The translations under genes and the position numbers were made by a program. From Pedobacter jejuensis (GTDB lineage: Bacteria; Bacteroidota; Bacteroidia; Sphingobacteriales; Sphingobacteriaceae): a DNA stretch of 64,000 nt. The notes below the pieces were generated by a model, which had not been told where the DNA came from, searched no databases, and saw nothing but the letters and a program-made list of their open reading frames with translations. Where the stretch lies: positions 1 to 64,000 of the forward strand of contig NZ_RBEE01000003.1 of NCBI RefSeq assembly GCF_003725795.1, in the 5' to 3' direction. Positions 15,022-63,636 of this stretch are shown in pieces (within the stretch, counting starts at the first letter, position 1; each line of letters begins with the position of its first letter).

Positions 15022-15846
15022 TTAAAATGGAAAGATTAGCAATGGCACAGGCTTATAGCGTGCACATTTGTCTTTAAAATATTGTTTGGTTAGGGTATTA
15101 AAATGAAAATGCTGATTAACCATAACCAACAGGTCGGCCTGCATACCACTTACCATAATTTCCAGGGTGTTCAGTTCATCGTTTTTTTCCAGCATATTCA
15201 GGAACAGTTTTGAGTAACCTACATTCAGGCTCACTTCCTGGTTAAAAATATTCTCCGCCTCTTTCATTGCAATTTCGGGAAGTCCGCTTGCGGAGCTGTG
15301 TGCAATTACAAGATTGGCCTTCCAGCATCCTGCAAGTCTAACCAGAAACCTGACGGTTTCAATTCCGCAGAAACGTAGGTCGGTTAGATAGACCAGTCGG
15401 GTAAATTCATTTTCTGACCATGAAGATGGAACGAGCAGTAAGGGAACCTGAAGCTGATCCAGCAAAGTATTGATCGCTAAATTCACATTAAGCAGTGCCT
15501 GAGGAAGAAATTCATCCATTCCCTTTACAACCATATAAATATCATTTCTTATGGAAAGCAGAAAAAGTCCTTTTCTATCCACTTCAACCTCCTGAATCAG
15601 CGGACTGAAGCCGGGATGCAGTTTTTTTCTCCTGAGCAGCTTTTTCATCAAAGGCGTATGGATAGGTTCTGCGATGGTTTCGTCATGAGAACTTCCTGCC
15701 CATCCGTAATCCCGCGAATCAAGCTTTAACTCCATACTGGTTGCAATAATGATATTCATATGCAAGCGCTGGGCAAGTACAAGTGCAAATCCCGCAGCAT
15801 GTTCTGCTTCCTGACTATGATCGTTGATGACAAGTATCGTTTTCAT
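15022..15846 (-). CDS. Universal stress protein family, tandem-domain, divergent
   Basis: 274 aa. It opens MKTILVINDHSQEAEHAAGFALVLA, the first strand and helix of a UspA fold, and repeats the fold in the second half (VYLTDLRFCGIETVRFLV; DLLVMVNQHFHF). The Walker-like G-2x-G-9x-G-S/T motif of ATP-binding Usps is missing from both halves, so nucleotide binding is doubtful. It has its own promoter with a perfect ATGAT-N4-ATCAT palindrome (15906-15919) and heads the operon with the 138-aa gene and the transpeptidase. It is one of three Usp genes in the window. Confidence 0.78.
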   Translation of the reverse strand: MKTILVINDHSQEAEHAAGFALVLAQRLHMNIIIATSMELKLDSRDYGWAGSSHDETIAEPIHTPLMKKLLRRKKLHPGFSPLIQEVEVDRKGLFLLSIRNDIYMVVKGMDEFLPQALLNVNLAINTLLDQLQVPLLLVPSSWSENEFTRLVYLTDLRFCGIETVRFLVRLAGCWKANLVIAHSSASGLPEIAMKEAENIFNQEVSLNVGYSKLFLNMLEKNDELNTLEIMVSGMQADLLVMVNQHFHFNTLTKQYFKDKCARYKPVPLLIFPF

Positions 15847-15875: not shown

Positions 15876-15918
15876 TAAATATCTGCATATACTTTAGCAG
15901 CCTAAATGATGGCAATCA
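15876..15918 (-). promoter_or_regulatory. Usp promoter with FNR-like site
   Basis: TGATGGCAATCA (15907-15918) sits inside the perfect palindrome ATGAT-GGCA-ATCAT. The minus-strand box GATATTTA (15876-15883) is centred 33 bp downstream, matching four of six bases of TAnnTTTG. Confidence 0.55.
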
Positions 15919-16125
15919 TGTTATAGATTGTTTATCGTCACCAAAGCAGAACTGATATTATAGAGAGGCATTAGTTTCATTTATCACGAAACTTCAAATG
16001 TTTACAACAAGATGCAAACTGGATCGAAAACCCAATTCCTAATGTAAATTTTAGCGGATTGGTCAATGAAAATTTGACCTGACGATATTTCACCAAGGCC
16101 AAGTAAATTATATGTCAGTAGAAAT

Positions 16126-25534: not shown

Positions 25535-26752
25535 ATGGAAAACACCGTATTGCTTAAAGCAATCATTGAAAATGCAATAGACGGCTTGATTACCATAGAT
25601 GATCGTGGGATTATTGAATCCATCAACCCTTCGGCATGTAAACTTTTTCATTATTCGGCTGACGAGGTCGTTGGTCATAATATATCTATGCTAATGCCGC
25701 AACCCGACCGGACCAGGCATGACGGCTATCTTTTTCAGTATAAAAAAACAGGGCATGCCAGTATCATAGGTATTGGAAGGGAACTTGTTGGATTGAAAAA
25801 AAACGGTAGCCAGTTTCCTTTTCGGCTGGGGGTAAGTGAGGTGCAATATTCTGGAAGAATTATTTATGCCGGATTTATACACGATCTGACCCGGGAAAAG
25901 GAAGCTGAAGGGAAATTACAGGATTATGCGGCATTACTGGAGGAACAGGTTGAAGAACGTACGCATTCGCTAAAAAATGCGGTTAATGTATTACAGCAAA
26001 CACAGGATGAGCTGAATTTATCCCTGAATAAGGAAAAAGAACTCGGACAGCTCAAGAGCCGCTTTGTATCTATTGCATCACATGAGTTCCGTACTCCGTT
26101 GAGTATGGTCCAGCTCTCCGCTTCACTCATCGACCGTTATGCAGAAAACCAGGACCGGGAAAGCATTGGAAAACATGTTGTCAAGATCAAAGATGCAGTG
26201 CTGAATATTACAGCTATACTCAATGATTTTCTTTCGCTGGAAAAACTCGATTCGGGCATGGTGAAACCAAAGCTCAGCCATTTTAACCTTTCGGAAATGG
26301 CCGAAGAGATTACCGGCGAAATGCAAATTACGCTTAAAGGAAAACAGAAAATTATTTTTAAGCACAGAGGACCTGGCCAGATAATTAACCTAGACCAGAA
26401 TCTGCTGAAAAACTGCATTGTGATCCTCATCGATAATGCAATCAAATATTCGGGCGATGAGAGCGAAATCCAGTTCTATACAAAAATCAATGAAAACAAT
26501 TTTTCAATAAGAATTTGCGACAATGGGATCGGCATTCCCGAAACGGATCACAAACACCTCTTTGAAGCATTTTTCAGGGCCCATAACACAGGAAACATTT
26601 CCGGGAATGGCCTTGGTCTGAGCATACTCTCCAGATATACCGGGCTAATGAACGGAAAAGTAAGTTTTAGGAGCAGAGTTAACCGAGGTACATTATTTAC
26701 ACTAACCTTTCCACTATCCAATAACCATGAGCAAAAAAATACTGATCATTGA
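25535..26752 (+). CDS. FixL-like haem-PAS sensor histidine kinase
   Basis: 405 aa, soluble, no membrane segment. PAS domain 1-125 has the FixL sequence pattern GLITIDDRGIIESINPSACK with LMPQPDRTRHDGY and IIGIGRELVG. His62 and Arg82 fall at the positions of the FixL haem-ligating His and O2-contacting Arg (20 residues apart in both). A coiled-coil linker, HisKA H-box (SIASHEFRTPL) and HATPase domain (N-box IDNAIKYSG, DNGIGIPE, GNGLGLS) follow. It should autophosphorylate according to ligand state and signal to the regulator at 26727, whose gene overlaps its 3' end by 26 nt. Haem binding is inferred, not shown. Paralogue at 59919-61109. Confidence 0.88.
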   Translation: MENTVLLKAIIENAIDGLITIDDRGIIESINPSACKLFHYSADEVVGHNISMLMPQPDRTRHDGYLFQYKKTGHASIIGIGRELVGLKKNGSQFPFRLGVSEVQYSGRIIYAGFIHDLTREKEAEGKLQDYAALLEEQVEERTHSLKNAVNVLQQTQDELNLSLNKEKELGQLKSRFVSIASHEFRTPLSMVQLSASLIDRYAENQDRESIGKHVVKIKDAVLNITAILNDFLSLEKLDSGMVKPKLSHFNLSEMAEEITGEMQITLKGKQKIIFKHRGPGQIINLDQNLLKNCIVILIDNAIKYSGDESEIQFYTKINENNFSIRICDNGIGIPETDHKHLFEAFFRAHNTGNISGNGLGLSILSRYTGLMNGKVSFRSRVNRGTLFTLTFPLSNNHEQKNTDH

Positions 26753-27776
26753 AGATCATGATGCTATCCGTGCAAACGTGGTAGAAATTTTAGAAATGGC
26801 ACTCTATACCGTATTTCAGGCAGAAAATGGAAAAATTGGTGTAGATATGGCCCTAAAAAATATCCCTGACATTATTTTGTGCGACATTATGATGCCCGAA
26901 CTGGATGGCTATGGCGTACTGTATATGCTCAATAAACATGTAGAAACTTCAGGGATACCCTTTATTTTTCTAACGGCAAAGGCTGAGCATGCAGACCTTA
27001 GAAAGGGAATGGAACTCGGCGCAGACGATTATCTAATCAAGCCTTTTGATGATATGGAACTGCTGAACGCAATAGACATCCGCTTAAGAAAAAAAGCCAT
27101 GGCTGAACATTCCCACAAAACCAATTCTGAGGAATTTAAAGTACTTGTATCAAAGACAGATGGGCTGGCAGAATTCAATAAAATTATTGAAGGCAGAAAG
27201 AGCAGGGAGTTTAAAAAGAACCAGGTTATCTATTATGAAGACGATCATGGTAAAGGGTTGTACCTCATCACCCAAGGCAGGGTCAAAACCATCAAGCTTG
27301 CTCAAGATGGCCGCGAACTAATGACAGGCATGTACAGCGAGGGAGATTACATTGGGATAAATGCCGTATTAAGCGGCAGCACTTATGCCGATACTGCAAC
27401 AACAATAGAAGACAGCCTGCTCTGCCTGATACCTACAGAACAGATGGAAAGTGTTTTCAGTCTTTATCCTGAGGTTGCCAGAAAGTTTATCCATTTGCTT
27501 TCGAGAGATAACCGCGAAAAGGAAGATCAACTCTTACAACTGGCTTATCATTCGGTAAGAAAAAAAATGGCAGGAACATTGGTTAAGCTGCACAGCAAGG
27601 ATATGAAAAATAACTTTTTCACCATTACCAGGGAAGATCTTGCTGCGATGGCCTGCATGGCTACCGAAACGGTTAGCCGTACACTTTCAGATTTTAAGGA
27701 TGAAAAACTGATTGAAAGAACTGGTTCAAGGATTACCTTACTGGACCTCAATGGACTTTCAAAAATGAAAAATTAG
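26727..27776 (+). CDS. Response regulator with CRP/FNR output (REC-cNMP-HTH)
   Basis: 349 aa. Receiver domain 1-125 with acidic pair E9/D10, phospho-acceptor Asp53 (ILCDIMMPELDG) and the KPFDD lysine. A cyclic-nucleotide-type beta-barrel (about 145-260) and a CRP-type winged helix (about 275-345) follow. The recognition helix reads ETVSRTLSDFK. E-x2-S-R is the FNR/FixK arrangement that reads TGAT half-sites. FNR's cysteines are absent, so sensing is presumably by phosphorylation from the FixL-like kinase. It is a natural candidate for the TGAT-N4-ATCA sites of this window. Confidence 0.88.
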   Translation: MSKKILIIEDHDAIRANVVEILEMALYTVFQAENGKIGVDMALKNIPDIILCDIMMPELDGYGVLYMLNKHVETSGIPFIFLTAKAEHADLRKGMELGADDYLIKPFDDMELLNAIDIRLRKKAMAEHSHKTNSEEFKVLVSKTDGLAEFNKIIEGRKSREFKKNQVIYYEDDHGKGLYLITQGRVKTIKLAQDGRELMTGMYSEGDYIGINAVLSGSTYADTATTIEDSLLCLIPTEQMESVFSLYPEVARKFIHLLSRDNREKEDQLLQLAYHSVRKKMAGTLVKLHSKDMKNNFFTITREDLAAMACMATETVSRTLSDFKDEKLIERTGSRITLLDLNGLSKMKN

Positions 27777-52066: not shown

Positions 52067-54211
52067 TTATTGTTGATTTGAAGGAATAGTTTCTTTATTG
52101 GCTTTAATATCGGTGCCTAACCTTTGCAGATAAGCAATAATGGCCACAATCTCCCGGTCGCTTTTTATTTTAATGTTGTTCTGTTTCAATTCCAGAGCAA
52201 TTTTTTTGGCTTGATTTTTCAAATCATCATTCGCCAACCTATCGTAACCATCGGGGTATGGAACGCCTAAGGTTTGCATAGCTCTTATTTTGCTTGGTGT
52301 TGTGGAAATATCCAACTCTTGTTCGACCAACCATGGATATGGGGGCATAATACTTCCCGGCGACATTGAAGTAGGATCGAGCAGGTGATTGTAGTGCCAT
52401 GCATCAGAATACTTGCCACCGATACGATGCAAATCTGGCCCAGTACGCTTACTACCCCATAAAAACGGGTGGTCGTAAACAAATTCGCCTGCTTTACTAT
52501 ATTCACCATATCGTTCTGTTTCTGAACGAAACGGACGAACAGTTTGTGTATGGCAGTTTACGCAACCTTCACGTATGTACAAATCTCTACCCTGAAGTTC
52601 TAAAGCAGAATACGGTTTTACACTGTTAATGGTTGGTACGTTAGATTGTATGGTGAAAGTTGGCATCATCTCTACCATGCCGCCAATAAGAATTATGATT
52701 AATGAAAATACCATAAACTTCATTGGCTTGCGTTCCAAAACCCTATGCCAAGATTTGTCGGCCTGCGAAACATCTATAATAATTTCGGTCAAAGGCATGG
52801 CTTCTGCAGGTTCATTTGCAACAAGTTTTGCACCCAACATTGTTTTTGCAAGGTTATAAGCCATGGCAATTACACCAGCTAAATACATTGCACCACCTAT
52901 CGACCTTAAAATATGCATCGGTATAATTTGAAGCGTTGTAGCTAAAAAGTTTGGGTATTTCAACAAACCATCAGGTGTAAACTCCTTCCACATTAAACCT
53001 TGGGTAAAGCCAGCCCAATACATTGGTACAGCATAAAAAAGGATGCCCAAAGTGCCTATCCAGAAATGGAAACCAGCTAGCTTTTTAGAATATAATTCGG
53101 TTTTATAAATACGCGGAATTAACCAATACAAAACGCCAAAAGTTAAAAATCCATTCCATCCTAAGGCTCCAACGTGTACGTGAGCAACTATCCAATCGGT
53201 AAAATGTGCAACACCATTAATTTGTTTAAGTGATAACAACGGACCTTCGAAAGTTGCCATACCATAAGCGGTAAGTGCCACAACCATAAACTTAAGTGTT
53301 ACATCCTCCCTAACCTTGTCCCAAGCTCCGCGAAGCGTTAAAAGACCGTTAATCATACCGCCCCAACTTGGTGCAATTAGCATGATAGAGAAAGCTACCC
53401 CTAAAGACTGTACCCAACCAGGAAGCGAACTATATAGTAAATGGTGAGGACCTGCCCAGATGTAAATAAATATTAACGACCAAAAGTGAAGAATACTCAA
53501 CTTGTATGAATAAACCGGTCTGTTAGCCATTTTAGGAAGGAAATAATACATCATGCCTAAATATGGTGTGGTTAGAAAAAATGCAACAGCATTGTGTCCG
53601 TACCACCATTGTACCAATGCATCCTGAACACCAGCATACACATAATAACTTTTCATAAAAGAGATGGGTAATTCGAAAGAGTTTACTATATGCAAAACAG
53701 CAATGGTTACAAACGTTGCGATGTAAAACCAAATGGCTACATATAGATGCCTTTCTCTTCTTTTAATGATGGTACCAAACATATTGATACCAAAAACTAC
53801 CCATATTATCGTTATGGCAATATCTATTGGCCATTCCAGTTCAGCATATTCATGTGATGTAGTTAAACCCAATGGTAGAGTAATAACTGCCGAAACAATT
53901 ATCAATTGCCAACCCCAAAAATGTATTTTACTTAAGATATCACTAAACATCCTGGCTTTTAAAAGCCTTTGCAAAGAATAATAAACACCCATAAAAATTG
54001 CATTGCCAACAAAAGCGAAAATTACCGCATTGGTATGTAATGGCCTTATCCGCCCGAAGGTGGTATATTGGCTGCCAAGATTCATTGATGGTTTAAAAAG
54101 TTGCATGGCTACGAGTAAGCCTACCGTCATTCCAATAATCCCCCAAACCAATGTGGCGAGTGCAAAGTTTCTAACTATTTTATTATCGTATGTAAATTTT
54201 TCTAACTGCAT
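52067..54211 (-). CDS. ccoN: cbb3 oxidase fused subunit CcoN-CcoO
   Basis: 714 aa. Residues 1-490 are CcoN, the catalytic haem-copper subunit with about 12 helices; the haem and CuB histidines include those in GHNAVAFFLTTPYLG, GPHHLLYSS and HVHVGALGWNG. Residues from about 520 are CcoO with the c-haem motif CVNCH at 550-554, QTVRPFRSE and SIMPPYPWL. The fusion is the usual Bacteroidetes form. It reduces O2 to water with high affinity at the inner membrane. An FNR-like promoter overlaps the ccoS stop just upstream. Confidence 0.95.
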   Translation of the reverse strand: MQLEKFTYDNKIVRNFALATLVWGIIGMTVGLLVAMQLFKPSMNLGSQYTTFGRIRPLHTNAVIFAFVGNAIFMGVYYSLQRLLKARMFSDILSKIHFWGWQLIIVSAVITLPLGLTTSHEYAELEWPIDIAITIIWVVFGINMFGTIIKRRERHLYVAIWFYIATFVTIAVLHIVNSFELPISFMKSYYVYAGVQDALVQWWYGHNAVAFFLTTPYLGMMYYFLPKMANRPVYSYKLSILHFWSLIFIYIWAGPHHLLYSSLPGWVQSLGVAFSIMLIAPSWGGMINGLLTLRGAWDKVREDVTLKFMVVALTAYGMATFEGPLLSLKQINGVAHFTDWIVAHVHVGALGWNGFLTFGVLYWLIPRIYKTELYSKKLAGFHFWIGTLGILFYAVPMYWAGFTQGLMWKEFTPDGLLKYPNFLATTLQIIPMHILRSIGGAMYLAGVIAMAYNLAKTMLGAKLVANEPAEAMPLTEIIIDVSQADKSWHRVLERKPMKFMVFSLIIILIGGMVEMMPTFTIQSNVPTINSVKPYSALELQGRDLYIREGCVNCHTQTVRPFRSETERYGEYSKAGEFVYDHPFLWGSKRTGPDLHRIGGKYSDAWHYNHLLDPTSMSPGSIMPPYPWLVEQELDISTTPSKIRAMQTLGVPYPDGYDRLANDDLKNQAKKIALELKQNNIKIKSDREIVAIIAYLQRLGTDIKANKETIPSNQQ

Positions 54212-54240: not shown

Positions 54241-54283
54241 CAAAGGTATCTTGGTGCAGTGATTTAAATGATGATGATGGTTA
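54241..54283 (-). promoter_or_regulatory. Internal ccoNO promoter with FNR-like site
   Basis: TGATGATGGTTA (54272-54283, one base from the consensus half-site) is centred 33 bp from TACCTTTG (54241-54248, minus strand), a perfect TAnnTTTG box. The site overlaps the ccoS stop codon. It allows ccoNOQPGH to be driven separately from hemN-ccoI-ccoS. Confidence 0.6.
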
Positions 54284-54460
54284 AGCAGAAAAGTGATCTT
54301 CTTCACTTTTTTCTTCAATTACCTCATCATCAAAAAGCATTCTTATTGCGGGAGTATGTACATCATCATTCTGACCGGTTTTGTAAGCCCAAATAAATGC
54401 CGCTAAAAAAATGAGTGCCATTACAATACTGCATCCCACTAAAAAGTAAAGGATGTTCAT
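54281..54460 (-). CDS. ccoS: cbb3 oxidase maturation protein CcoS
   Basis: 59 aa, easily missed because of its size. It begins MNILYFLVGCSIVMALIFLA and has one membrane helix and an acidic tail (DDEVIEEKSEEDHF). In relatives CcoS is needed for insertion of haem b and CuB into CcoN. Its ATG overlaps the ccoI stop (ATGA), and it precedes ccoNO, the expected position. Confidence 0.9.
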   Translation of the reverse strand: MNILYFLVGCSIVMALIFLAAFIWAYKTGQNDDVHTPAIRMLFDDEVIEEKSEEDHFSA

Positions 54461-56844
54461 AGCAGTTTATTTTTATGTGCAAACCACCTGGTGGCCAGTG
54501 TTGTAAATGAAATTATGGTTATTGTACTAATGGGCATTAACACCGCAGCAACAAGCGGATATAACGTACCTTGCACTGCATAAAAAATACCTATGCAGTT
54601 GTAGACAATCGCTATGGCAAAACTGATTTTAATGATTTTCAAGCCATCTTTACTTTGCTGAATAAAATTTGGCAGCAGGTTTAGAGCATTTCCTTTTAAA
54701 ATGGCATCGCAGCCCGGTGTAAAATTGTTGATGTTATCGGTTATTGCTATGCCGAAATCACTTTGTTTTAATGCACCGGCATCATTCAATCCATCGCCCA
54801 ACATCATTACCACATTTCCCTGCTGTTGAAGTTCTAAAACCGCATTCAGTTTTTGATGCGGGTTTTGCTGAAATTTGATTTTTGCTTTTGGCGGGAAAAT
54901 TTCTTTCAGTACCGATTCATCTTTATTGGTATCACCAGATAATACCTGAAGTTCGAAACTACTTTTTAAATTGTCCAGAAGAGTTTTTAAATCAGGTCGC
55001 CATTTTTGATTGATAACAAAACAGCCTTTGTAATTACCATCTATTAAAATATGCACACCATTCTCAGCAGAACTTGTTACATCAACAGGTAAAAGAGAGA
55101 GATTGCCTACATAAACAGTATAGCCATTGATATTACCGCTTAAACCCTTTCCAGGGATTTCCAGAAAACTTCGAACCGTATAAAATTTATCGACACTTAA
55201 TGCTTTTAAAATTTGCCTACTTAAAGGGTGTGCAGAATTTCGAATAAGCGAACAAACTGCTATTTTTTCTTCTTCATCTAGTAATCCACTAAATGTAATT
55301 GCAGCAGTTTCGCTGCTGGTTAACGTACCGGTTTTATCAAAAACAATTGTATTGCATTTTGCAAGCGCTTCTACGGCATCTGTATTTTTAACGTAAAAAC
55401 CCTTTTTATCAAAAACAGATAAAATTGCCGATAATGTGAAAGGTGTACTTAAGGCCAATACGCATGGGCATGCTACTATGATAACTGCTGTAAATGCCGA
55501 CCAAGCTTTATGGCTATCGCTTTGTAATAACCAAAATCCGGTTGCAAAAAAAGCTATAGCAAATACAGCCAGACTAAAATATTTGGCTACACTATCGTTA
55601 AAATTCTGCTTAGCGTTATTGATTTTATAATGCTCATTGTTCCATAAGCCTGTTAAATAGCTTTGAGAAACCGGTTTAATCACTTCAAGTTCTATCGCCT
55701 CTCCTATTTGCCTGCCGCCGGCATAAATAATTTCGCCTAAAACTTTGTTTATCGGCTCAGATTCGCCGGTTACAAAACTCATGTCCATGTTCCCATCGCC
55801 TTTCATTAAAATAGCATCAGCCGGTACTAATTCTCCATTTCTAATCCAAAGGCGATCGCCGATATTAATTTCGTTTATTGATACCGGTTTTTCTTTACCG
55901 TTTTGTAATGTTGTTACCGCTATCGGGAAATAAGAACGATAATCTCTATCGAATGAAATGTGGTGATAAGTGCGTTGTTTTAACCATTTACCCATTAGCA
56001 GCAAAAACACAAGGCCACTCAGCGTATCTGCAAATCCTGGCCCATGGTTAAAAATTATTTCAAATGCTGTTCGGAAAAACAATACGGCAATTATTAAAGC
56101 CAAAGGCGTATCGAGGTTAATGTGTTTGTGTTTTAAACTTGTAATTGCCGATGTAAAATAATCGCGGCCACAATAAAAAGCCACAGGAATTGAAAAAGCG
56201 AGATTTAACCAACCAAAAAGCCACTGAAATTCCTCTTCAAAACCTGAAAGTCCAAAATATTCTGGAAAGCTAAACAGCATAACATTGCCCATGCAAAAAC
56301 CTGCAATCGCAATTTTTAATATCAAAGTTTTATCAGCCGAATCTTTGTGTTCTTTTACAACGTCCTGCAAACTTATTAACGGTTCGTAGCCTATTTGATT
56401 TAAGGTTTGCACCAACTGTTTCAATGATATTTCTTCGTGATTAAAACTTATGGTAACCTGTTTTTTAAGAAAATCAATTCTCGAGCTAAATATTGCCGGG
56501 TTAATTTTATAAAGATGTTCTAACAACCAAATACAAGAACTACAATGGATTGCCGGAATGTAAAAAGTAATGATGCTTGAGCTTTCATGCCGATAATCAA
56601 GCAATTGTGTAATGATTTTTGGTTCATCGAGATATTCTAAATGCCCGTCATTTTTAAGTTGCTGACCAGGATTGTTATTGTACACATAATAATTACAAAG
56701 GTTATTTTCCGAAAGGATTTTGAAAACGCCCAAGCAACCTGCACAACAAAAATCTTTATCATCTATTTGATATTTTAACTTGGGCAGATCCTCTCCACAG
56801 TGATAGCAAACCGCTTCAGTTGTTGTTTTATTCTGATCTTCCAT
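54457..56844 (-). CDS. ccoI: Copper-transporting P-type ATPase CcoI/FixI
   Basis: 795 aa. N-terminal zinc-ribbon-like Cys set (CYHCGE; CCAGC), an HMA domain with IHCSSCIW, the membrane ion motif CPC (IVACPCVLALSTP), TGES (SFVTGESEPI), DKTGTLT, the SAHPLS motif of P1B pumps and GDGLNDAGALKQSDFG. It exports copper for cbb3 assembly rather than for detoxification, which its position between hemN and ccoS supports. Confidence 0.95.
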   Translation of the reverse strand: MEDQNKTTTEAVCYHCGEDLPKLKYQIDDKDFCCAGCLGVFKILSENNLCNYYVYNNNPGQQLKNDGHLEYLDEPKIITQLLDYRHESSSIITFYIPAIHCSSCIWLLEHLYKINPAIFSSRIDFLKKQVTISFNHEEISLKQLVQTLNQIGYEPLISLQDVVKEHKDSADKTLILKIAIAGFCMGNVMLFSFPEYFGLSGFEEEFQWLFGWLNLAFSIPVAFYCGRDYFTSAITSLKHKHINLDTPLALIIAVLFFRTAFEIIFNHGPGFADTLSGLVFLLLMGKWLKQRTYHHISFDRDYRSYFPIAVTTLQNGKEKPVSINEINIGDRLWIRNGELVPADAILMKGDGNMDMSFVTGESEPINKVLGEIIYAGGRQIGEAIELEVIKPVSQSYLTGLWNNEHYKINNAKQNFNDSVAKYFSLAVFAIAFFATGFWLLQSDSHKAWSAFTAVIIVACPCVLALSTPFTLSAILSVFDKKGFYVKNTDAVEALAKCNTIVFDKTGTLTSSETAAITFSGLLDEEEKIAVCSLIRNSAHPLSRQILKALSVDKFYTVRSFLEIPGKGLSGNINGYTVYVGNLSLLPVDVTSSAENGVHILIDGNYKGCFVINQKWRPDLKTLLDNLKSSFELQVLSGDTNKDESVLKEIFPPKAKIKFQQNPHQKLNAVLELQQQGNVVMMLGDGLNDAGALKQSDFGIAITDNINNFTPGCDAILKGNALNLLPNFIQQSKDGLKIIKISFAIAIVYNCIGIFYAVQGTLYPLVAAVLMPISTITIISFTTLATRWFAHKNKLL

Positions 56845-56854
56845 AGTAAAACAG

Positions 56855-58201
56855 TTAAATTGATGAACTGAAAAGTTGAGTTTTTGGTTGCTTCTCCCAC
56901 AATTTTTCGTCGAAAGCCATGCAAACGTTTCTCAAAAAAGATTTACCTATTGATGTGATTTTGATTTCCTTTTCATTAATGGTGATTAATTTATCGGACA
57001 ATAGAGGTTTTAATCGGGCTTGTATTTCATCAGGTATTCCTTTATGATAGGAAGTGTGTTCCCTACACATAATATTTAGAATATGCCTTCTAATCCCTAG
57101 ATCTTCCTCGCTCAGTAAATGTCCTTTTTCGACCGGGAGAATTCCGCGTTGTATTTTATCTAGATAACTCTCAACTGTTTTTGGATTCTGGGCAAATGCA
57201 GTCCAACTATCGCTGATTGCCGACACACCCAAACCAATAAGCAAATGCGTATGCTGGCTGGTATACCCCATAAAATTCCGGTGAAGTTTTTGTTCCACCA
57301 TCGCTTGGAACAGGGAATCGCTGTTTAGTGCAAAATGATCCATACCAACATCTTCATAGCCTGCTTCAGCAAGTAAATGCCTGCCCAATTGATAAAGTGC
57401 AAATTTATTTTCGCCTATTGGAATATCTTTCTCAGTATAATGTCTCTGCCCGGGTTTTAACCAAGGCACATGCGCATAACTGTAAAAAGCAATCCGATCA
57501 GGTTTCATTAAAATCGCTGTTTTGATGGTATCGCTTAAACCAAAAAGCGTTTGTCCTGGGAGACCATAAATTAAATCAAAATTAATGGAGGTATAACCAA
57601 TTCCTCTGGCTTCTTCGGTTACTTTAGCCACTTGTTCAGGCGTTTGGAAACGGTTAATCAGGAACTGAACCTTTGGATCAAAATCCTGGATACCAAGACT
57701 TAATCTGTTAAAACCAAGTGTGTTTAAAATCTTTAAGTGTTTTAATGTTGTATTGGCTGGATGTGCTTCAAAAGAAAGTTCAGCATCTTTAGTCAACTCA
57801 GCGTTTTGCAAAATCACACTAATCAATACTTCAAGATTTTCAGCACTAAAAAAAGTGGGTGTTCCGCCTCCAAGATGGATTTCCTTAATTTTTGGCATTT
57901 CGCCCAAAACTGAAACATACATTTCCCATTCCTTAATCAAAGCCTCAATGTAAGGCTGCTCTACGTTATGGTTTTTGGTTATTCGGGTATTGCATCCACA
58001 ATAGGTACAAAGACTTTCGCAAAAGGGAAGATGGATGTATAAGCTTATGCCCTCTTTTTTGTAATCTGAATAGGTTTTCCCAACAGTTTTTTCCCAATCG
58101 TATACATTGAATTTTTCATTATCCCAGTAAGGAACTGTTGGATAACTGGTGTACCGTGGCACAGCAACATTGTATTTTTTAAGCAATAAGGCAGTTTCCA
58201 T
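56855..58201 (-). CDS. hemN: Oxygen-independent coproporphyrinogen III oxidase
   Basis: 448 aa from the ATG at 58201, whose A is the last base of the preceding gene's TAA (TAATG). An ATG 27 bases upstream is also open. Radical-SAM cluster motif CESLCTYCGC (C-x3-C-x2-C), HLGGGTPTF, and the C-terminal HemN domain with MGYTSQHTHLLIGLG. It makes protoporphyrinogen without O2, so haem for the oxidase can be made when O2 is low. Confidence 0.95.
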   Translation of the reverse strand: METALLLKKYNVAVPRYTSYPTVPYWDNEKFNVYDWEKTVGKTYSDYKKEGISLYIHLPFCESLCTYCGCNTRITKNHNVEQPYIEALIKEWEMYVSVLGEMPKIKEIHLGGGTPTFFSAENLEVLISVILQNAELTKDAELSFEAHPANTTLKHLKILNTLGFNRLSLGIQDFDPKVQFLINRFQTPEQVAKVTEEARGIGYTSINFDLIYGLPGQTLFGLSDTIKTAILMKPDRIAFYSYAHVPWLKPGQRHYTEKDIPIGENKFALYQLGRHLLAEAGYEDVGMDHFALNSDSLFQAMVEQKLHRNFMGYTSQHTHLLIGLGVSAISDSWTAFAQNPKTVESYLDKIQRGILPVEKGHLLSEEDLGIRRHILNIMCREHTSYHKGIPDEIQARLKPLLSDKLITINEKEIKITSIGKSFLRNVCMAFDEKLWEKQPKTQLFSSSI

Positions 58202-58629
58202 TATTTTAATACTTTTTGGGTTGCACAATCATTTTGACAGCAACATGCTTTACCCACACATTTACCAGCAGCCCATTGGTCAAGGTTTTTTATAACTTGT
58301 TCCATCCGAAGTTTAGGATCCGTATCTCCAATATCAAAAGGAACGTTTGCAACTTTTATTCCTGCAAAACCCGCTGCTTTTAAATCCAGGTGGTCAGTTT
58401 GAAAAGATGAGGTTGCGATGTATTTGATGCCGAAAGATTTTAACCCTTCAATCATAGCTTCACTCAAATAATCATTATTAAACACCAAAAGCGCTTCTTT
58501 GCCTGCTGCAAAAGAAAGCGTGTCGGCCGTTAAGCTATTGGCGATTATGGTGATGTCGTGCTTTTTATAATTTGCAAGAACCAACCATTCCTTTTCATCG
58601 GGCTTAATATTGTAGGCAATAGCTTTCAT
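58201..58629 (-). CDS. Truncated D-lactate dehydrogenase-like protein with Cys-rich tail
   Basis: 142 aa. Residues 1-100 (MKAIAYNIKPDEKEWLVLAN; FGIKYIATSSFQTDHLDLKA; IKVANVPF) match the N-terminal catalytic half-domain of D-2-hydroxyacid dehydrogenases. The NAD-binding domain and active-site Arg/Glu/His are missing. The sequence jumps to a helix like the family's C-terminal end (MEQVIKNLDQWAAGK) and closes with CVGKACCCQNDC. It cannot be a working dehydrogenase. The five-Cys tail could bind a metal or cluster. It heads hemN-ccoI-ccoS and is translationally coupled to hemN, which argues that it is kept for a purpose. Confidence 0.7.
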   Translation of the reverse strand: MKAIAYNIKPDEKEWLVLANYKKHDITIIANSLTADTLSFAAGKEALLVFNNDYLSEAMIEGLKSFGIKYIATSSFQTDHLDLKAAGFAGIKVANVPFDIGDTDPKLRMEQVIKNLDQWAAGKCVGKACCCQNDCATQKVLK

Positions 58630-58647
58630 ATATAGAATTTATCTATA

Positions 58648-58712
58648 CAAAACTATGGGATTGGATGTGCGCAATAGATGAGGATGCTTAGAGAAAAAAA
58701 TGATCCTGATTA
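58648..58712 (-). promoter_or_regulatory. hemN-ccoI-ccoS operon promoter with FNR-like site
   Basis: TGATCCTGATTA (58701-58712, one mismatch in the right half) is centred 55 bp from TAGTTTTG (58648-58655, minus strand), a perfect TAnnTTTG box lying 19 bp before the first start codon. Confidence 0.6.
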
Positions 58713-58863
58713 CATTTTGGATAGAAGTGCCTAATTCTATCATCATAAAAGAAATGTTAACTAATGTCCGTCATTTCTATATAGATGCAAATCGTAATAA
58801 TCTTAACGATTGAAAACTGCACCAGTATATGGAACTAGTTTGATGAAGATTGATTTTACAGGG

Positions 58864-59895
58864 TTACTGCCTAATGTTTCGAAGTTTTTCGATAGACAGA
58901 ATATTGATGGCATTTCCTGTTTTATCAATTAGTTTTTCATCTTTAAAATCAGCAAGCGTTCTGCTGACTGTTTCGCATGCTGTGCCCACTAGTGCCGCAA
59001 GATCATCTCGTGAAATCCGAATGGTGCAACTGTCTGCAGGGTCATCGTTAAATTTGCTAGCAACCTGTAACAAAGCTTCAGCAACACGCTTTCTCACCGA
59101 TGAATAAGCCAGTTGAAGCATTTTGCTACCCTTGTCTCGAATATTTCCAGATAGCAATGCAATAAATGTCTTAGAAACGGTCTGATGATTCAGCAAATAC
59201 TCCATAAAGTCAGCTTTTGGAATTTGTATAATATCCGATTCAATCAAAGTGGCTGCATTATCTGCGTAAAGTTCACCATTACACAAACTTTCATACCCAA
59301 AAAAATCACCATCGTGGTGTAAATTAGAGGAAAGTTCACGCCCGTCTTTAAAACGCTTGTAGGTTTTTACCTGTCCTTTTATGAGATAGTATAAATGAGT
59401 AGGATCATCACCTTCTACATAAATAATCTGTTTATTAGCAATCGACCTCGATTTACCTTTTTTTCGAAGCGCTTCAATAACCGCCTCGCAATTATCAGAA
59501 TCGGTACTAAAACTACCAGATTGCTGCTTTTTCTTAAATCTACTTTCTATTGCCTTAAATAATTCAAGATCATCAAATGGTTTGGTCAGATAATCATCGG
59601 CACCCATTTCCATTCCCTTCCTCATATCAGCACGTTCGGTTTTCGCAGTAATAAAAATGAAGGGAATGTTGGCCGTTTTTGGGTTTTTATTTAAGAGATA
59701 AAGTACTCCGTATCCATCCAATTCAGGCATCATAATATCACACAAAATAATATCTGGCAAATGTTTTAATGCCATCTCTACACCAACCTTGCCATGTTTA
59801 GCCAAAAAAGTTTCGTAACCAGCCAAATCGAGTACCTCGGCAGTACTTTCCCGGATATCGTCATTATCTTCAATAATTAAAACTTTCTTATTCAT
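58864..59895 (-). CDS. Response regulator with CRP/FNR output (REC-cNMP-HTH), second copy
   Basis: 343 aa. Receiver with E9/D10, Asp53 (ILCDIMMPELDG) and KPFDD; a cNMP-type barrel (QIIYVEGDDPTHLYYLIKGQV); a winged helix with SRDDLAALVGTACETVSRTL. The recognition helix is the same E-T-V-S-R as in the regulator at 26727-27776, so both should read the same DNA. FNR-type cysteines are absent. It follows its FixL-like kinase by 23 bp and lies next to the cbb3/hemN operon. Confidence 0.88.
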   Translation of the reverse strand: MNKKVLIIEDNDDIRESTAEVLDLAGYETFLAKHGKVGVEMALKHLPDIILCDIMMPELDGYGVLYLLNKNPKTANIPFIFITAKTERADMRKGMEMGADDYLTKPFDDLELFKAIESRFKKKQQSGSFSTDSDNCEAVIEALRKKGKSRSIANKQIIYVEGDDPTHLYYLIKGQVKTYKRFKDGRELSSNLHHDGDFFGYESLCNGELYADNAATLIESDIIQIPKADFMEYLLNHQTVSKTFIALLSGNIRDKGSKMLQLAYSSVRKRVAEALLQVASKFNDDPADSCTIRISRDDLAALVGTACETVSRTLADFKDEKLIDKTGNAINILSIEKLRNIRQ

Positions 59896-59918
59896 GGCCT
59901 GGAGGATGATTTATAAAC

Positions 59919-61109
59919 CTATTTACTAAAGTGAAAACTTAGCGTAAAAACCGTTCCGTGATGCTGTTCGCTCTTGCAGGCCACCGTTCCTTTCATTAAA
60001 CCAACATATCGCTTTACGATATTCAATCCTAGTCCCGTTCCCGGAATATCGCCTGTATTGTGCGCCCTAAAGAAAGGTTCGAAGAGATTATTTTGATCAG
60101 CTTTGGGAATGCCGATTCCATTATCCTTTACTTCGAGCACGAGTTCATCATTTTTCAAAATCGTATTGAATTGAATCAGCGTATCTTCTCCAGAATATTT
60201 TATAGAATTGGAAATAAGGTTTATAATGCAGTTTTTTAGCAGATTGGAATCCAAAACAACATCAGCTGTCGTCCCTGTATGTTCATAAATAATATGTTGG
60301 TTTTGCTTGGTCATCATCTGCATTTCCTCTGTAATTTCTTCAGCGAAACTGATAATATTGAACGATTGTGGTGAAGCTTCTACTTTACCAGCTTCTAATT
60401 TTTCTAACGAAAGAAAATCGTTTAAGATGGTGGTAAGGTTGTTAATAGAATTTTTAATTTTCGAAGTGTGTTTTTCTACGCTAGCTACATCCTGTTTCGT
60501 GGTATATTTATCAATCAGCGAAGCTGACAATTGAATTGAACTCAGTGGCGTTCTGAATTCATGTGAAGCCATGGAAACGAACCTCGTTTTTAACTGATTA
60601 AGTTCTTTTTCTTTTTGAAAAAGCGCCCTCATATTTTCTTTTGCCATTTCCAGTTCTGATACGAGCTTTACCAAATCCTGTGTGCGTTCCTTTATTTTAA
60701 CCTCAAGTTTTTCGGTATAGCTTTTTATCTGCTCTTCGTTTGCTTTTTCTTTACTCAAATCATGAATAAAACCGGTGTAAATTTTACGGTCGCTAAACTT
60801 AATCTCGCTCACGCCCAATCTAAAAGGAAAAACAGTTCCGTCTTTGCGCTTACCTGAAACTTCTCTCCCAACTCCAATAATATTCTTCTTACCAGTATGC
60901 TCATACTTTGAAAGATAGGCATCATGGCGGGAGCGATCAGGTTCTGGCATCAATACCGAAATATTATGTCCAACCAACTCAGCTCTGGAATAGCCGAAAA
61001 GTTCCAGCGCAGCCGGATTTAAATGTTCTATAATTCCTTTATCGTCAATGGTTATAATTCCATCAATGGCATTCTCTATAATTGCATCTAAAAACTTCGA
61101 CCTATCCAT
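59919..61109 (-). CDS. FixL-like haem-PAS sensor histidine kinase, second copy
   Basis: 396 aa, soluble. PAS domain with GIITIDDKGIIEHLNPAA, MPEPDRSRHDAYL and IIGVGREVSG; His62 and Arg82 occupy the FixL haem and O2-contact positions, as in the paralogue at 25535-26752. The coiled coil, H-box (SMASHEFRTPL) and HATPase (NLISNSIKYSG; DNGIGIPK; GTGLGLN) are complete. It should sense O2 or NO through haem; this is inferred from residues only. It lies 55 bp downstream of the 589-aa gene and may share its promoter. Confidence 0.88.
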   Translation of the reverse strand: MDRSKFLDAIIENAIDGIITIDDKGIIEHLNPAALELFGYSRAELVGHNISVLMPEPDRSRHDAYLSKYEHTGKKNIIGVGREVSGKRKDGTVFPFRLGVSEIKFSDRKIYTGFIHDLSKEKANEEQIKSYTEKLEVKIKERTQDLVKLVSELEMAKENMRALFQKEKELNQLKTRFVSMASHEFRTPLSSIQLSASLIDKYTTKQDVASVEKHTSKIKNSINNLTTILNDFLSLEKLEAGKVEASPQSFNIISFAEEITEEMQMMTKQNQHIIYEHTGTTADVVLDSNLLKNCIINLISNSIKYSGEDTLIQFNTILKNDELVLEVKDNGIGIPKADQNNLFEPFFRAHNTGDIPGTGLGLNIVKRYVGLMKGTVACKSEQHHGTVFTLSFHFSK

Positions 61110-61164: not shown

Positions 61165-62934
61165 CTATTGAATAATGATATTATCTAATTTAACTTTCGC
61201 AAGTGCCAATTCATTCAATTGAACGGAAGCCTGATCTGTAAGCTCGTTGAATAGGTTTTTATAATAAATTATACCTTCGGATAATTGTAATTTAAATCCG
61301 TTTAACTGCTTCCGCTTTTTATCGCTGAAATTCTGAAGCTGTTTTTTGATGTCCTGCTGAAGATAATCAATGTACAGATTGAGTTCATTGATGAATATAT
61401 GTGGTCTTGGCACAAGTTCTAAAAGATTGATTTTCCCATAAATATGCCCAACCATTTCATCAAAGGAATATATGTCAGAAAAGTAGGCTAAATTTGGTCC
61501 GGGGCAGATGGCTACCGCTTTATTCTCTTTAGGCTTAGCAATATTATATTTTAAATAAGCCGACGAACATAATCCCTCGCAAAGACAAACTTTTTCAGTA
61601 ATCGATTTAACCTGCTTTTGATAATCATCTTGGGAAAGATGTGAGGCTTTCAAACTTTTGATTTTTAAATGTTGATACTCCCTGGATGCGGTACAAATAG
61701 CCTGCTGGGTAAATTCTGTGTTGTTGCACAAGTATTTTTTCGTGCAGGGACTTCCAGGTCTACCTTTTTCAATTCGTTCGGTACGTTGATTTTCAATGCT
61801 ACTATTTTTGAAATTATTGAACTGTATGCCGAGTGGAGAAGCGCCACTTAAATAAAAATCGCTATGCTTAGCCTTGGCCAAATGCGATAGCGTTTCAGCA
61901 TCAACATTTGTTACTTCCGGCACCAGAAGAAAAGGACTTCCCCAACCTGTTGCATCGAGATCATAATATTTGAGCAGGAAACTGTGTTCTTCTGCAGTAC
62001 CAATACCCCCTTGTACACTAATGCGTTGTTTCGGTTTGCTTTCAATCAGCATGTCTTTTTGTGCTAAAGCGTTTTGGTACATTTCAAAAAGCTCACTAAA
62101 CATTTCTTTTTTTCTGTTTTTAAATTCTTCTAAAATGGGACCTAGTAAATAGCCCTCAGTTGCAAATGCATGACCGCCACAATTTAAACCAGACTCTATT
62201 CTAAATTCTGAAACCCACAATCCTTTCTTCGCCAAAAACTTTGCCTGAATTAAAGCCGATCTAAAATCGCTGACCTTTAAAACGATTCTCTTTTTCAGCA
62301 TGCCTCTTTCATTAGGAAAAAAGTCTTTAAAATCCTCCATGTAACTGTATAATTTTGGATTCATTCCTGCAGATAAAATCACCGAAGCGCTTAAATCACT
62401 TTCTGCAAAACCACGCAAAGCAGATAATGCATCGGTATTTAAATCGCCCGTATATTCACCATTTTCATAGTTCATTTTATCCACCTTCGCCATGATATTC
62501 ACATCGATAGATCCTAGCCTCATGGCATTACGCAATACATTTTGAAAGGCATTTTTTGGCTCGCCCTCCGAATATTCGAGCATTAACTCGTAGCCTTGCT
62601 TTAACTTTGAGGTGTCTGGTAATAATTCGAAGTAACGAGAAAGATCATTTCCTTTAATAAAATTCTGTTTTTTTAACTCTTTGAACTGATCATTAATGAC
62701 TTCATTCAGAAAATTTAAATATGCCTTAATTCTCTTAGAACGATAATCATCATCTGATTTTGGGGTGGGCAGGAACTGATAAAAATTCTTTCCGGAATGA
62801 TATTCCCGCATACGTTCAATCAATTCATCATCAACTATGGATAAAACAGAAGATATTCCATAACGGGAAACTTTCAGAGGTGTATCAATAGAATAGCCTA
62901 AACCTAAAACCGGGATGTGAAAAGTGTGCATCAT
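61165..62934 (-). CDS. Uncharacterised 589-aa protein, possible TIM-barrel with Cys cluster
   Basis: I do not recognise the family with confidence. The opening (FHIPVLGLGYSIDTPLKVSR) and the central part (ISVQGGIGTAEEHSFLLKYY; GWGSPFLLVPEV; DFYLSGASPLG) look like phosphate-binding loops of an FMN-type TIM barrel. Residues 397-477 contain Cys397, 403, 414, 450, 452, 456 and 477, including C-x-C-x3-C, which could hold an iron-sulfur cluster. The C-terminal 90 residues are helical and coiled-coil-like. No signal peptide. A perfect FNR-like site with a perfect -7 box precedes it, and it leads into the FixL-like kinase and regulator genes, so a role in low-O2 physiology or in that signalling is plausible. 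Confidence 0.75.
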   Translation of the reverse strand: MMHTFHIPVLGLGYSIDTPLKVSRYGISSVLSIVDDELIERMREYHSGKNFYQFLPTPKSDDDYRSKRIKAYLNFLNEVINDQFKELKKQNFIKGNDLSRYFELLPDTSKLKQGYELMLEYSEGEPKNAFQNVLRNAMRLGSIDVNIMAKVDKMNYENGEYTGDLNTDALSALRGFAESDLSASVILSAGMNPKLYSYMEDFKDFFPNERGMLKKRIVLKVSDFRSALIQAKFLAKKGLWVSEFRIESGLNCGGHAFATEGYLLGPILEEFKNRKKEMFSELFEMYQNALAQKDMLIESKPKQRISVQGGIGTAEEHSFLLKYYDLDATGWGSPFLLVPEVTNVDAETLSHLAKAKHSDFYLSGASPLGIQFNNFKNSSIENQRTERIEKGRPGSPCTKKYLCNNTEFTQQAICTASREYQHLKIKSLKASHLSQDDYQKQVKSITEKVCLCEGLCSSAYLKYNIAKPKENKAVAICPGPNLAYFSDIYSFDEMVGHIYGKINLLELVPRPHIFINELNLYIDYLQQDIKKQLQNFSDKKRKQLNGFKLQLSEGIIYYKNLFNELTDQASVQLNELALAKVKLDNIIIQ

Positions 62935-62954: not shown

Positions 62955-63019
62955 CAAACCTATTAAAGCATCAGCAATTTCTTAAAGATGTATATTACTT
63001 AAAAATATGATTGAAATCA
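62955..63019 (-). promoter_or_regulatory. Promoter of the 589-aa gene with FNR-like site
   Basis: The perfect palindrome ATGAT-TGAA-ATCAT (63007-63020) is centred 55 bp from TAGGTTTG (62955-62962, minus strand), a perfect TAnnTTTG box about 20 bp before the start codon. Confidence 0.65.
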
Positions 63020-63195
63020 TTTTTTTAAAGGTTATTGATAGTATGCTGGATGAACCATCGTGTACTGAGCTCATCTCGCGAAAAATAATTTCAGCATAAA
63101 ATCTTAATCATACAAATAACAAAAGTCACAAAAGGGATAGAACGGGGTCAAATAATTATCTCTTTCAATTAGATTTCATTAAATCTTCTCCTTAG

Positions 63196-63410: not shown

Positions 63411-63436
63411 CTTAATACAAACTGTATCTGTGTTTG

Positions 63437-63510
63437 TCGGGGTGGCAGGATTCGAACCTACGACCTCCTGCTCCCAAAGCAGGCGCGATACCGGGCTACG
63501 CTACACCCCG
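63437..63510 (-). tRNA. tRNA-Pro (anticodon TGG), copy 1
   Basis: 74 nt, minus strand. 7-bp acceptor CGGGGTG/CACCCCG with discriminator A, anticodon arm CCTGC-TTTGGGA-GCAGG giving TGG, T-arm with GGTTCGAATCC. CCA is not encoded. Confidence 0.96.
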
Positions 63511-63562
63511 AAAATGGCATCGATCTTTTATTTAATTCTTGCAGTTGCAGCTGCAAATTTTG

Positions 63563-63636
63563 TCGGGGTGGCAGGATTCGAACCTACGACCTCCTGCTCC
63601 CAAAGCAGGCGCGATACCGGGCTACGCTACACCCCG
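63563..63636 (-). tRNA. tRNA-Pro (anticodon TGG), copy 2
   Basis: 74 nt, identical in sequence to the copy at 63437-63510 and 52 bp away. A tandem duplication of one tRNA-Pro gene. Confidence 0.96.

Follow-up and report, generated by a model that had tools for sequence, protein, structure and literature searches.

The window analyzed here, a stretch of 64,000 nucleotides from Pedobacter jejuensis, contains an open reading frame for a 589-residue protein that lies behind an FNR-like promoter, leads into a FixL-like sensor pair and belongs to no named family. What does this protein do, and does it serve the adjoining sensors or a wider response to falling oxygen? To our knowledge, little has been established about low-oxygen metabolic remodelling in aerobic Bacteroidota beyond respiration. 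A preliminary description of the locus offered two readings, a new redox enzyme carrying flavin and Fe–S, or a ligand-producing partner of the sensors. The computed open reading frame is real, starts with ATG and lies on the minus strand. The first of the two readings is well supported as a prediction by the fold of the nitronate monooxygenase (NMO) superfamily, by matches to FabX and PfaD, by GGH and FMN-site motifs, and by invariant cysteines where FabX holds its [4Fe-4S] cluster. On balance we consider it probable that the protein is a low-oxygen FMN/Fe–S oxidoreductase with acyl-thioester-type chemistry and that it represents a new family of the NMO superfamily.

Table 1 Coordinates of the gene, its predicted functional regions, its neighbors and the promoter elements.
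Feature	Position	Strand	Basis or remark
Predicted FMN/[4Fe-4S] oxidoreductase, new NMO-superfamily family (working name NPDx)	61165..62934	-	CDS, 589 aa
Predicted active site, codons E247–H255 (ESGLNCGGH)	62170..62196	-	129/129 invariant; alignment to FabX
Predicted Fe–S ligand region, codons C397–C477	61504..61746	-	Five Cys at 129/129; roles of individual Cys inferred
CRP/FNR-type dyad ATGATTGAAATCAT	63007..63020	.	Centre ~62 bp upstream of inferred transcription start, class I position
Bacteroidota -7 promoter box TAGGTTTG, TAnnTTTG type	62955..62962	-	Sequence scan
PAS histidine kinase, FixL-like	59919..61109	-	Pfam PAS, HisKA, HATPase_c
Receiver domain fused to CRP/FNR regulator, candidate activator	58864..59895	-	Pfam Response_reg, cNMP_binding, HTH_Crp_2
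Second dyad and TAGTTTTG box, spacing 58, upstream of ldhN-hemN operon	58648..58713	-	Spacing scans of homologous loci
ldhN, 142-aa stand-alone N-terminal domain of 2-hydroxyacid dehydrogenase	58201..58629	-	PF00389; first gene of hemN operon
hemN, oxygen-independent coproporphyrinogen oxidase	56855..58228	-	Identified by eye; conserved neighbor
ccoI/fixI-type copper P-type ATPase	54457..56844	-	Identified by eye; conserved neighbor
Dyad and TACCTTTG box, spacing 58, upstream of ccoNO	54241..54306	-	Strict genome scan
ccoNO fusion, cbb3 oxidase	52067..54211	-	TIGR00780 match, G000:C3:52799-54193

Sequence searches and predicted fold

The preliminary description could name no family, and our searches bear this out. 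Pfam and NCBIfam models gave no match at cut-off, and a sequence search of the PDB returned no family match. In NCBIfam nothing appeared at E values up to 5, TIGR02814 (PfaD) included, and the gathering score of PF03060 (NMO) was not reached. FabX chains gave zero matches up to E 10 by phmmer and profile search, i.e., the protein does not belong to FabX at the sequence level. When its own genome was searched with TIGR02814 and PF03060, the models retrieved a FabK-like protein and one other open reading frame, not the 589-residue protein. The family has neither a Pfam nor an NCBIfam model, and a search of an open-access literature library did not find it described. No signal peptide was seen, and the protein is therefore probably cytosolic. 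Matches of its C-terminus to DUF1451 and apolipoprotein A-I in Pfam and the PDB involve low-complexity helical sequence and were rejected as compositional.

An AlphaFold2 model built with 42 family sequences has a pTM of 0.88 and a mean pLDDT of 85.8, with weak stretches at residues 151–153 and 400–416. Foldseek comparison of this model with the PDB placed Helicobacter pylori FabX (HP0773) first (E = 1.1e-9, probability 1.00), followed by PfaD (2.2e-8) and the enoyl reductases of trans-AT polyketide synthases (DfnA, MlnA), and then by NMO-type enzymes; NMO and NADH:quinone reductase structures are among the weaker matches. A second model (pTM 0.85), built separately for a homolog with 50% identity to the window protein (L088), matched PfaD first (4.8e-9) and FabX sixth (2.2e-7). 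TM-scores normalized by FabX length range from 0.60 to 0.66, modest values that are expected given the large insertions. In a viral fold library there was one relevant match, a phage protein whose annotation links it to 2-nitropropane dioxygenase. Both computed models are thus assigned to the NMO superfamily, and within it they lie closest to the enzymes that act on acyl thioesters; the "barrel-like loops" remarked on in the preliminary description correspond to a predicted FMN-type TIM barrel.

FabX is an acyl-ACP dehydrogenase/isomerase that carries FMN and a [4Fe-4S] cluster (PMC8626469 for the cofactor sites). The window protein shares with it a predicted FMN barrel, a GGH catalytic-His motif, an SPxG motif and a Cys-rich subdomain after the barrel, as well as a low-oxygen setting. 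It differs in having only ~15% identity, 589 rather than 363 residues, large helical insertions, C-terminal helices, and another number and spacing of cysteines, and its family is known here from sequence and models. Resemblance to NMO and FabK (PF03060) extends to the superfamily fold and the GGH motif, but PF03060 itself does not match, in Foldseek the window model matches these enzymes with E-values some four orders poorer than that of FabX, and the Cys region is extra.

The resemblance to PfaD, DfnA and MlnA, which share the FMN barrel and a similar total size (PfaD chains are 501–533 aa), raises the possibility that the protein catalyzes a reduction. It might then be an enoyl-thioester reductase resembling PfaD or FabK, or some other reductase that draws on NAD(P)H or ferredoxin. 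The fold ranking, with these domains next after FabX for one model and PfaD ahead of it for the other, favors such a reading, as does the overall length. However, TIGR02814 does not match at E values up to 5, the invariant Cys set is a feature of the window protein that sets it apart from these enzymes, and no genes for polyunsaturated fatty acid (PUFA) or polyketide synthases were recognized near the gene. Moreover, in the comparison of FabX with FabK the Fe–S subdomain sits where FabK has its NAD(P)H-binding motif (PMC8626469). We regard the reductive direction as rather unlikely.

Conserved residues and the putative active site

Conservation was assessed in an alignment of 129 sequences whose identity to the window protein has a median of 55% and a minimum of 39%. 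Invariant throughout are N146, E247, C252, H255, Q308, W331, C397, C414, C450, C452, C477, P478 and G479. All seven cysteines counted in the preliminary description (397, 403, 414, 450, 452, 456 and 477) are present; as a conserved cluster, five of them (397, 414, 450, 452 and 477) stand, and 403 and 456 vary among the homologs. The refutation proposed there, a lack of Cys conservation among homologs, thus fails for five of the seven. C252 is an eighth cysteine outside that set.

A single FabX sequence (checked against PDB chain 9lt5) gave nothing usable with hhalign, and a usable alignment was obtained only with the wide family alignment. The resulting family profile is collinear with FabX homologs over 226 columns (P = 0.0043), and among the 44 profiles compared with the family FabX ranked best and FabK second. 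In FabX, the FMN contacts are N99, E175, Q240, T243 and F339-T340-G341, the catalytic residue is His182, and C300, C304, C308 and C320 are the [4Fe-4S] ligands (PMC8626469). The alignment places the NIM segment at N146 on the FabX N99 segment, SPLG on SPVG, and GLNCGGH on GPLSGGH, so that the GGH of H255 falls on that of catalytic His182. The FabX arrangement of a catalytic His in GGH with an upstream Glu is found here as E247 and H255, both at 129/129. C397 lies near FabX C300, and C414 aligns with C320.

By eye, the segment ICPGPN (476–481), within which C477 lies, resembles the FTGAN segment that contacts FMN in FabX. On this reading the cluster would most likely be bound by C397, C414, C450 and C452, with C252 and C477 probably close to the flavin. 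Two observations count against a direct transfer of the FabX site: the ligand pattern C-x3-C-x3-C-x11-C does not occur, the invariant cysteines of the family being spaced otherwise, and C450 and C452 fall inside an insertion relative to FabX. The geometry of the cluster is not readable from the model because pLDDT is below 50 at residues 400–416.

A purely structural role for the cysteines, as a zinc site or as disulfides, would also be compatible with cofactors that are predicted and with a Cys region that is poorly modeled. Several points make it quite improbable: (i) the invariant cysteines occur in 129 of 129 sequences and are collinear with the cluster subdomain of FabX, (ii) the protein, having no visible signal peptide, is probably cytosolic, and (iii) the predicted low-oxygen expression suits an Fe–S protein.

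In the enzyme that we favor, a cytosolic flavoprotein would consist of an FMN-binding NMO-superfamily TIM barrel with helical insertions, and an Fe–S cluster would be held, as in FabX, by invariant cysteines after the barrel. H255 may take a proton from the substrate and FMN a hydride, with the cluster relaying single electrons to or from FMN, a wording that reflects how tentatively we infer the direction of electron flow. The most likely class of substrate would be an acyl thioester, acyl-ACP or acyl-CoA; on the strength of the models, action on such compounds is likely.

Genomic setting and promoter geometry

In the window, as in Pedobacter generally, the gene order is the 589-residue gene, kinase, receiver-CRP regulator, ldhN, hemN, ccoI and ccoNO. 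The kinase starts 55 bp downstream of the gene and is followed by the receiver-CRP regulator, in line with the preliminary description, which had the gene leading into a FixL-like pair. The kinase matches NCBIfam sens_FixL_Rhizob at E 9.5e-51, below the cut-off of that model, and the recognition helix of the regulator, read from the sequence as E-T-V-S-R, is FNR-like. The ldhN product has a Cys-rich tail, CVGKACCCQNDC, and in roughly half of the loci its gene likewise stands on its own ahead of hemN.

Does this adjacency make the protein a dedicated producer of a ligand or signal for the sensors, as had been suggested? In most Pedobacter loci the gene immediately precedes the kinase, at a gap of 43–70 bp. 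However, a survey of genomic context showed that this adjacency is confined to close relatives, chiefly loci of the Pedobacter type. Around the 42 distant loci, not one member of the kinase or receiver-CRP clusters occurs nearby, and in many Mucilaginibacter loci the gene faces ccoI or comes after the cco operon. Distant members are found instead with nos, ric, Rrf2 and nad genes or in unrelated surroundings. A dedicated partnership is thus very improbable, and we conclude that the gene is controlled by the low-oxygen circuit and does not act as the sensor kinase's own partner.

In the distant families, cco genes are absent among the near neighbors, which include RIC/ScdA and Rrf2 (five loci each), a NosY-like permease (four), NosD and NosF (three each), NosL (two), NadA–NadB (three), a di-haem peroxidase and a multicopper oxidase; elsewhere in the distant set the surroundings are often unrelated. 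In 19 of the 67 genomes that contain both genes, the distance to nosZ is at most 13 kb (binomial P about 5e-26, assuming random placement and independence). The gene is beside or near nadA-nadB (quinolinate synthesis) in L138, L140 and L088, and in L138 it lies inside a nosD-nosF-nosY stretch.

The occurrence, in several families, of RIC/ScdA, Rrf2 or nos genes nearby could point to a detoxifying or quinone-reducing flavoprotein of the NMO type that protects from nitrogen oxides or their products, and NMO and NADH:quinone reductase structures do occur among the weaker fold matches. Those matches, however, have Foldseek E-values several orders weaker than those of FabX and PfaD, and in Sphingobacteriaceae the gene travels with the cbb3 oxidase and hemN, the genome of the window itself having no nosZ. 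We therefore consider a protective role of this kind unlikely.

The promoter is as the preliminary description had it, an FNR-like dyad, ATGATTGAAATCAT, ahead of a TAGGTTTG box, and the claim is strengthened by spacing that is kept in homologs. When 60 homologous loci were scanned for dyads with up to two mismatches before a TAnnTTTG box, the dyad-to-box spacing was exactly 58 bp in 26 and 36 bp in 14, compared with 0.04 loci per spacing in shuffled sequence and at most three occurrences of any other spacing; these counts are not independent events because many of the loci are close relatives. In a scan of whole loci, spacing 58 occurred 55 times and spacing 36 occurred 23 times against a mean of 4. 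Where the gene following such a site was labelled, it was mostly the 589-residue gene (39) or the ldhN-hemN operon (19). The genome of the window has 21 copies of the dyad versus 4 of the reversed pattern. Strict combinations of dyad and box at spacing 58 number six genome-wide versus none in the control, two of them belonging to the 589-residue gene and ccoN; at spacing 58 or 36 there are 13 versus one for the reversed control, with both of these genes again included.

The two spacings differ by 22 bp, i.e., two helical turns. We take spacing 58 to correspond to a position of about -62 to -61.5 (class I) and spacing 36 to about -40 to -41.5 (class II) for activators of the CRP/FNR type. Given that the spacing is kept in homologs, at fixed helical phase relative to the core promoter, the computed dyad–box arrangement is far beyond chance. 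It shares TGA-N6-TCA dyads and two spacings 22 bp apart with CRP/FNR class I/II promoters and differs from them in its Bacteroidota TAnnTTTG promoter and in the candidate activator, a receiver-CRP fusion. In our proposal, falling oxygen would switch the gene on through a CRP/FNR-type activator bound at the class I or class II position; the neighboring receiver-CRP regulator, fed by the FixL-like kinase, is the candidate for this role. The geometry common to the 589-residue gene, ccoNO and ldhN-hemN offers a practical marker with which the low-oxygen regulon could be delimited throughout Bacteroidota.

Distribution and possible role at low oxygen

In a sample of 395 evenly drawn Bacteroidota genomes the family occurs in 142 (36%), as a single copy in nearly all carriers. 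Named genomes, mainly of Pedobacter and Mucilaginibacter, contributed 61 loci, and the closest named homolog, from Pedobacter fastidiosus, is 87% identical. One homolog (43%) lies on a contig labelled Fibrobacter (L091), and a plasmid search returned zero homologs. One genome (G095) holds, besides an intact copy elsewhere, pieces of a second gene copy (G095:C1:4371176-4372459), one with two in-frame TGA stops.

With kinship ignored, ccoN is present in 104 of 142 carriers versus 82 of 253 non-carriers, and within the window's own family it tracks the gene perfectly (8/8 versus 0/3, kinship again ignored). Against our preferred explanation, 23 carriers have neither a strict ccoN nor nosZ. The evidence from physical linkage and promoter spacing does not rest on these co-occurrence tests.

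Since the neighbors are the cbb3 oxidase, oxygen-independent haem synthesis, N2O respiration and Fe–S repair, the shared setting is one of oxygen shortage. Under such conditions the simplest task for an FMN/Fe–S enzyme resembling FabX or PfaD would be to stand in for an oxygen-dependent step, and its most likely role would be an oxidation or isomerization, e.g., the formation of unsaturated acyl chains once desaturases stop. By analogy, the best-known precedent for such a replacement is unsaturated fatty acid synthesis by FabX in H. pylori; a report cited in PMC11300592 has the Neisseria gonorrhoeae FabX homolog as essential for this synthesis under anaerobic conditions.

The most specific form of our explanation is accordingly worded after FabX/UfaA: an acyl-ACP dehydrogenase/isomerase that would supply unsaturated fatty acids independently of an oxygen-dependent desaturase when oxygen is scarce or during denitrification. 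That the protein makes unsaturated fatty acids without oxygen is plausible from this analogy, and we regard the full reading as a possibility, though less likely than not, with evidence on both sides. FabX, with its FMN and [4Fe-4S] cluster, is the best fold match of the window model, but for the L088 model the enoyl reductase PfaD matches just as well. Desaturases (PF00487) are commoner in carriers (104/142 versus 107/253, kinship ignored), an association that could just mirror an aerobic lifestyle; at E 1e-15 a PF00487 desaturase is missing from 38 of the 142 carriers, and the idea of desaturase replacement therefore does not fit every carrier. True FabX occurs in just five of the 395 genomes, and none of the five carries the 589-residue gene or a PF00487 desaturase; this non-overlap is suggestive, yet compatible with chance and lifestyle. 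Two null results count against an acyl-chain role: no fatty-acid gene is recurrent beside the homologs, and no recognized lipid gene lies behind the strict dyad–box sites of the window's genome. Furthermore, FabX itself takes O2 as acceptor in vitro.

A broader version, in which an unnamed phylum-wide class of FMN/[4Fe-4S] enzymes oxidizes acyl chains in facultative Bacteroidota when desaturases stall, most simply for unsaturated fatty acid synthesis, and is wired into the cbb3 and N2O-respiration regulons, strikes us as doubtful. If unsaturated lipids are indeed supplied, or another oxygen-dependent step replaced, the family would help to explain how Bacteroidota grow as oxygen disappears. 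In any case, a conserved family embedded in cbb3 and N2O-reductase clusters across more than a third of the sampled genomes is a concrete target.

Other features of the window were recorded in passing. The region 6416–54211 resembles a low-oxygen island, with fumarate reductase, Usp proteins, cation ATPases, acetate kinase, phosphoketolase and the cbb3 oxidase, most of them identified by eye. Within it, another perfect ATGAT-N4-ATCAT dyad (15906–15919) lies upstream of a UspA-like gene (15022–15846, minus strand), and a second pair of PAS kinase and receiver-CRP regulator (25535–27776, plus strand) is a paralog of the pair at 58864–61109. On the minus strand, tandem tRNA-Pro(TGG) genes at 63436–63510 and 63562–63636, 126 bp apart, look near-identical.
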